Shown here one piece after another: positions 52,992 to 53,633 of a stretch of DNA of 64,000 bases. A model generated the notes under the pieces. That model searched no databases, was not told the DNA's origin, and saw only the letters and a list, made by a program, of their open reading frames with translations. The DNA comes from Candidatus Palauibacter scopulicola (GTDB lineage: Bacteria > Gemmatimonadota > Gemmatimonadetes > Palauibacterales > Palauibacteraceae). The position numbers and the translations under genes are program-made. The stretch is taken from positions 1 to 64,000 of the forward strand of contig NZ_CANPWG010000008.1 in the NCBI RefSeq assembly GCF_947581915.1, in the 5' to 3' direction. The stretch's first letter is position 1. Each line of letters starts with the position of its first letter.

Positions 52992-53423
52992 TCAGGCGAA
53001 TACCGTCTCTATCAGTCGATCGAAGTCCTCGTCCGTCGCACTCGTCACGCTCTCGAACGTCTCCGGATTCCAGATCTGGACGTGGTTGATCGCGCCCACG
53101 ACCAGAGCCTCGCTGCCGAGCGCGACCGCCTTTCTCATCCTCTCCGGAATCAGGATCCTTCCCTGCGCGTCCGGCGAGACCTGAACGGCGTCCGCCGTCA
53201 CGCGAAGCACCTGGGGGCGAAAGCGCGGTTCCCGTCTCGACATCTCCCGGAGTTCGTCCTGCACGTCTGCCCAGGCCTCGTCCGGATAGAGCGACAGCGC
53301 GTCGGGTTGCGTCTTGAGGAGGACGAACGGCTCCCGCTCCCGGCCCCTTCGAAAAGGCGCCGGCAGGCTGACCCGACCCTGAGAGTCGAGTTGATGTCGA
53401 TAACTCCCCAGAAAGCCTGGCAA
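52992..53423 (-). CDS. mraZ: Transcriptional regulator MraZ
   Basis: 143 residues, two SpoVT/AbrB-like repeats (FLGSYRHQLDSQGRVSLPAP; VQVSPDAQGRILIPERMR). First gene of the dcw cluster and its likely autorepressor. TTG at 53423 has GAAGG upstream and gives the typical MraZ N-terminus; a longer start would not. Boxes upstream fit MraZ binding. Confidence 0.92.
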   Translation of the reverse strand: MPGFLGSYRHQLDSQGRVSLPAPFRRGREREPFVLLKTQPDALSLYPDEAWADVQDELREMSRREPRFRPQVLRVTADAVQVSPDAQGRILIPERMRKAVALGSEALVVGAINHVQIWNPETFESVTSATDEDFDRLIETVFA

Positions 53424-53455
53424 ATCGTGCCTTCGACATTCGCCAAGGGTGTCCC

Positions 53456-53543
53456 TCCCAGAACGACCCGTTTCCACCCACCGAAACCCACCTTATGCGT
53501 CCTGGTGATGGGTGTCAACCCCTTTTCTCCCCATTCTATCCCA
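53456..53543 (-). promoter_or_regulatory. mraZ promoter with two arrays of TGGG-type boxes
   Basis: On the minus strand TTGACA (53513-53518) and TAAGGT (53490-53495) are 17 bases apart. Downstream, boxes TGGGT, TGGGT, CGGGT and TGGGA lie at 53486, 53476, 53466 and 53456, exactly 10 bp apart. Upstream, TGGGA, TGGGG and AGGGG lie at 53539, 53529 and 53519, also 10 bp apart. MraZ of E. coli binds TGGGN repeats separated by 5 bases, so this fits autoregulation. Confidence 0.75.
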
Positions 53544-53553
53544 TCACAAGGAG

Positions 53554-53590
53554 AAAAAAGCGCCCGGCCGCGGTGAAGCGAACCGGGCGC
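53554..53590 (-). terminator. Rho-independent terminator after the TPR gene
   Basis: On the minus strand an 8-bp stem, GCGCCCGG with CCGGGCGC (53583-53590 and 53560-53567), is followed directly by six T. It ends the transcript of the TPR gene at 53634 and isolates the mraZ promoter that begins just beyond. Confidence 0.85.
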
Positions 53591-53633
53591 GAGGGCCTCG
53601 AAACAGGGTGCGCCCAGGGCGGGCGCCGCCGGG

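Follow-up and report, generated by a model that had tools for sequence, protein, structure and literature searches.

Putative second MraZ operator upstream of the −35 element in the mraZ promoter of Palauibacter

The mraZ promoter in the genus Palauibacter probably carries two MraZ operators with the promoter between them, and MraZ would bind both and tightly autoregulate the cluster. The arrangement is a predicted doubling of a known operator, and one specific to the lineage. The model is built on promoter anatomy, matrix scores, conservation and lineage distribution, from which we infer MraZ binding, the order of occupancy and repression. In the proposed mechanism, MraZ produced from the cluster would fill the upstream array first, an order set by its higher predicted affinity; this operator abuts the −35 element, where the alpha subunits of polymerase would bind. 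At a higher MraZ level the weaker downstream array would also be filled, and the promoter would be blocked from both sides, which would put mraZ and the division genes that follow under tight autoregulation.

In several bacteria the division and cell-wall cluster is under MraZ control and, to our knowledge, it is unclear why MraZ forms a ring when its operator engages only three or four of the subunits. A naturally occurring promoter that has two in-phase arrays, together with close relatives that carry one array, would offer a ready test of a ring using two DNA segments. The same promoters could show how the arrangement of operators determines how strong the feedback on division genes is.

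Anatomy of the mraZ promoter and its box arrays

The window is the whole stretch of DNA analyzed, 64,000 nucleotides of a contig of Candidatus Palauibacter scopulicola. On its minus strand, TGGG-type boxes lie before mraZ on both sides of a TTGACA-N17-TAAGGT promoter (Table 1). An earlier note on this DNA had described four downstream and three upstream boxes at exact 10-bp steps around that promoter; its coordinates are right, every step within an array being exactly 10 bp, and two of the seven boxes are imperfect, with A (u3) or C (d3) in first place. The mraZ promoter was not listed by a consensus promoter scan that demands at least 4/6 matches per hexamer and at least 9/12 overall.

Table 1. 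Features of the mraZ promoter region (positions in the window)
Feature	Position	Strand	Remarks
Hairpin + T-run	53553..53590	−	probable terminator of upstream TPR gene; from fold
u1 TGGG	53540..53543	−	upstream box
u2 TGGG	53530..53533	−	upstream box; sequence TGGGGAGAAA
u3 AGGG	53520..53523	−	upstream box, abuts −35
−35 TTGACA	53513..53518	−	invariant in 12 core congeners
−10 TAAGGT	53490..53495	−	last T is first base of d1; N17 spacer to −35
Downstream array d1–d4 (TGGG, TGGG, CGGG, TGGG)	53457..53490	−	homologue of class-wide array behind −10
d1 TGGG	53487..53490	−	downstream box
d2 TGGG	53477..53480	−	downstream box
d3 CGGG	53467..53470	−	downstream box
d4 TGGG	53457..53460	−	downstream box
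mraZ CDS, TTG start	52992..53423	−	PF02381, E 4.2e-26; start set by congener comparison; two DxxxR motifs

Judged from the −10 element, transcription would start near 53484, and the downstream array most likely covers the predicted start and the 5′ leader. The mraZ frame is open back to GTG 53477, but the start is most likely TTG 53423. The place homologous to TTG 53423 holds GTG in two congeners (G003 and G005) and ATG in a third (G013); these starts indicate that the downstream array is most likely leader and start-of-transcription DNA and not coding sequence. G003 also has an in-frame stop a few codons ahead of its GTG start. This stop and one-base gaps, despite which d2 to d4 are kept, speak against the idea that the downstream array is conserved because it encodes extra N-terminal residues of MraZ, read from GTG 53477, and that idea was rejected.

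The MraW/RsmH methylase gene comes next after mraZ (PF01795, E 8.8e-94). Both arrays accompany a cognate MraZ that keeps both DxxxR motifs, as DSQGR and DAQGR. The downstream array has the layout of an MraZ operator: at least three direct repeats with a TGGG or GTG core, at a 10-bp period, just past −10 and before mraZ. The upstream array likewise consists of direct repeats at 10-bp steps that agree with the MraZ-box consensus, although u3 is itself weak, being AGGG and not TGGG. It departs from the usual position downstream of −10; it sits immediately upstream of −35, which is its variant feature.

Just past d4, the leader reads AGGG-ACA-CCCT (53446–53456, minus strand), a possible small hairpin that has a counterpart, GGG-GCAA-CCC, in G013; a computed fold of the leader pairs these bases differently. 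This segment is possibly a leader RNA element.

Matrix scores and chance expectation

Boxes were scored with a matrix derived from 83 boxes in the downstream arrays of 25 genera, with the own genus excluded and only sense-oriented arrays admitted; ranks refer to the window (127,982 decamers, both strands) and not to the genome. By this measure u2 is the first-ranked decamer, u1 ninth, d2 28th, d4 112th, d1 321st, u3 2228th and d3 8257th. Single-box scores are 10.9 bits for u1, 3.7 for d1, −1.0 for u3 and −5.2 for d3. The low scores of d1 and d3 indicate that conserved boxes are not all captured by the matrix. Positions 5–10 of u2 contribute 6.3 bits, a value matched by no other of the 432 TGGG sites of the window.

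Taken as a pair, u1 and u2 score 24.3 bits; the top pair outside the promoter reaches 14.2, and the top pair of the downstream array 12.4. The upstream array also ranks first in the window with three boxes (23.3, versus 9.8 for the downstream array) and with four (15.3, with one position not a box, versus 13.5 for d1–d4). That both arrays are MraZ-type sites, as had been proposed, thus gains support from an outgroup-trained matrix that places the upstream array at the top of the window, and from its conservation in the genus. Of the two putative operators, the upstream array has the more canonical sequence, and the downstream array is conserved but more derived. u3 may be an older element of the promoter that happens to lie in phase.

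None of 5000 dinucleotide shuffles of 53560–53496 matched the upstream two-box score. The pattern TGGG-N6-TGGG occurs eight times in the window (1.92 ± 1.26 expected), twice at the mraZ promoter. Extended to TGGG-N6-TGGG-N7-GGG, it has exactly two matches in the 3.6-Mb genome, the upstream and the downstream array, and the reversed control pattern has five. Across 17 congeners, a canonical two-box pattern gave four matches in four genomes, three of them at the upstream array (G000, G009 and G005) and one at another place (G006); its reversed control gave three.

Conservation in the genus and distribution beyond it

Sixteen congeners were readable in the alignment, including G012, which is not alignable at the upstream array and lacks it; the 12 core congeners are close relatives and do not amount to 12 independent tests. 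The GGG cores of u2 and u3, 10 bp apart, are kept in 15 of the 16, and the neighboring DNA drifts. The expectation that the boxes would be conserved in relatives therefore holds for u2 and u3 and not for u1, which reads TGGG in eight of the 16 aligned congeners, TGGT in five and is lost in three. Among the 15 alignable congeners, u2 is TGGG in 14 and AGGG in one (G011); u3 reads AGGG in 12, and the other three, all deep congeners, have TGGG.

Within the 12 core congeners, variable columns number 2 of 14 across u2, its spacer and u3, 11 of 12 in the −35/−10 spacer at 53507–53496 and 35 of 60 at 53610–53551. Right behind −35, at 53508–53512 of the minus strand, stands CCCAT, an inverted TGGG in which one of five columns varies in these genomes, against 11 of 12 in the remaining spacer. 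In deep congeners the spacers have changed and the boxes persist: G003 reads TGGGgaaaaaTGGGa, G013 reads TGGGgtaaagTGGGg, and G005 has three TGGG ahead of −35.

The joint pattern of u2, u3, −35, −10 and d1 matched a single site in each of 13 of 17 congeners and gave zero control matches. The misses are G005 (TGTG at d1), G010 (its contig ends inside the gene), G011 and G012. The upstream-region set was compiled without a second copy from G003 and without the two G010 stretches, where the contig ends in the gene. An automatic test for TGGG-N6-NGGG in a 45-base zone that includes −35 and stops 22 bases short of the first downstream box was positive in 12 of 16 congeners. We put its shortfall against the alignment down to G011, with AGGG at u2, and to G005 and G015, where first boxes were misplaced.

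MraZ was found in 49 of 60 relatives and in 137 of 246 genomes of the class. It was not found in 109 of the 246; among 20 of these that were listed, 17 belong to families f5 and f7. For 109 class genomes with upstream stretches of at least 150 bases, the best three-box match within 125 bases upstream of the gene anchor, in either orientation, reached at least 11/12 in 95, a raw count. By eye, an array stands just behind −10 in most of the printed class upstream regions (47 and further ones), and the overlap of −10 with the first box is also present in other genera of the family. The downstream array is thus, as far as sequence comparison goes, the ordinary MraZ operator found class-wide and in E. 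coli.

A pair of the u2–u3 type above the promoter was absent from all 14 readable family members outside the genus. The same members lend weight to reading the upstream boxes as promoter context, a G-run before −35, or as the site of another regulator, with the 10-bp phase incidental: all 14 have GGG right before −35 by eye, and six have a lone TGGG in the upstream zone, which means that single boxes are common there. The poor matrix score of u3 points the same way. We nevertheless think this unlikely; it leaves u1–u2 unexplained, above all the unmatched score of u2 positions 5–10, as well as the re-use of the 10-bp step in deep congeners with altered spacers.

Beyond the genus, the zone test was positive in 3 of 22 members of genus g17 (G046, G138 and G188), which belongs to family f6 of the same class, and in 1 of the 71 remaining genomes (G122). 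Control zones farther upstream, 20 of which were shortened, contained the pattern in 1 of 109 (G085). Like Palauibacter, the three g17 members have TGGG-N6-TGGG directly ahead of a −35 element (TTGC) and a TGGG array downstream. They differ in that the box starts 4 bp and not 5 bp before −35, in further TGGG within the promoter and in the arrangement being limited to these three of 22.

A collection-wide scan for the sandwich pattern matched at least 120 stretches, among which the mraZ gene, identified by a class-derived profile, was found at L139, L113 and L158. From a panel of 40 other genomes of that scan, 29 of them with MraZ, 30 loci of 29 genes were printed; the panel was drawn from pattern matches and gives no frequency. 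By eye, no comparable in-phase array above −35 was seen at these 30 loci except L257, the same mraZ region as L139, which had been picked for the panel by its pattern match. By eye, the four other searched genomes of that family (L284–L287) do not retain the L139/L257 boxes as a pair in phase.

Alternative readings and known MraZ systems

A single MraZ ring could also engage both arrays at once and bend or wrap the intervening promoter; the earlier note had suggested looping or a large ring on both sides. From first to last, the seven boxes cover 83 bp (7.9 helical turns), and at roughly 10 bp for each subunit this span would be close to the circumference of an eight-subunit MraZ ring. The distance from u3 to d1 is 33 bp (about three helical turns; 3.1), which would place the arrays on roughly the same helix face; that spacing is no evidence for a bridge, since boxes set directly against a promoter whose spacer is 17 bp yield this distance. 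Solved MraZ structures include 1n0e and relatives, as well as 9qlg, 9qlr and 9sx6. We regard the shared ring as doubtful. If it did form, it would hold the −35/−10 region in a tight wrap that excludes polymerase, and the similar sandwich in genus g17 would have a separate origin.

The chances are slimmer that the upstream array serves as ordinary operator for another, more distal promoter, whose −10 hexamer TAGAAT (53538–53533) would end in u2. Related genera do have TANAAT running into the first TGGG, and TAGAATGGGG in G000 and G009 matches the −10/box junction of outgroups, occurring also in G018 and G022. However, the second-place A of the hexamer is lost in 5 of the 12 core congeners (G004, G006, G007, G011 and G015), and no −35-like hexamer was seen 16–18 bp above, where the T-run of the probable terminator lies. 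That terminator hairpin was not listed by a consensus terminator scan, which has a loop rule of 3–8. A divergent gene served by the upstream array is out: the upstream TPR gene lies on the same strand, with the terminator-like hairpin between.

Least probable of all, in our estimate, is a biphasic scheme in which MraZ at a low level binds the upstream array and aids polymerase, and at a high level occupies the weaker downstream array as well, causing repression. The higher two-box score of the upstream array would set such an order of filling, but the array is centered at about −48 from the predicted start, which is not a typical activator position. Overexpression of MraZ in M. gallisepticum was accompanied by raised FtsZ (Fisunov 2016, via the accessible part of PMC8475190). 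According to the same part of that source, MraZ is a repressor in E. coli, where it is also annotated as such, and in M. genitalium, where loss of mraZ raises the division cluster.

The model of two operators flanking the promoter can be set beside known MraZ systems. The earlier note had compared the layout with E. coli, whose MraZ recognizes three TGGGN repeats with 5-base spacers, and the sequence agrees: in K-12, three direct TGGG repeats spaced 10 bp apart lie just downstream of an apparent −10, and the regulator belongs to the same family. E. coli has no other TGGG in the 200 bases above mraZ, whereas in Palauibacter a second array abuts −35. The E. coli mraZ promoter and its MraZ boxes were reportedly the subject of work by Eraso et al. 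in 2014, which PMC8475190 summarizes.

In B. cenocepacia, PmraBc contains four 7-nt repeats with 3-nt spacers, downstream of −10 and over the transcription start, and MraZ binds the fragment that bears these repeats of its own promoter (PMC7761207, accessible part). The 10-bp period and the position over the start resemble the Palauibacter downstream array; a single array is described in that part of the paper. The Mollicutes site, (AAAGTGKN3)3, is bound by MraZ at its own promoter (PMC5282649, accessible part) and is similar in having direct repeats of 10-bp period at a division-cluster promoter; it differs in being, as given there, a single array with another spacer sequence. No published description of an MraZ array upstream of −35 was found in the searched literature, which included the accessible parts of PMC5282649, PMC7761207, PMC5138195 and PMC8475190 and left most subscription papers outside.

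Orientation varies among MraZ arrays. In 18 of the 19 genera of family f6, the best 10-bp array before mraZ is inverted, with CCCA on the mraZ-sense strand, for example at L198 (G107), L213 (G101) and L193 (G146), and by eye the mraZ arrays of L113 (Niveispirillum) and L158 are also reversed. MraZ arrays seem to function in either direction.
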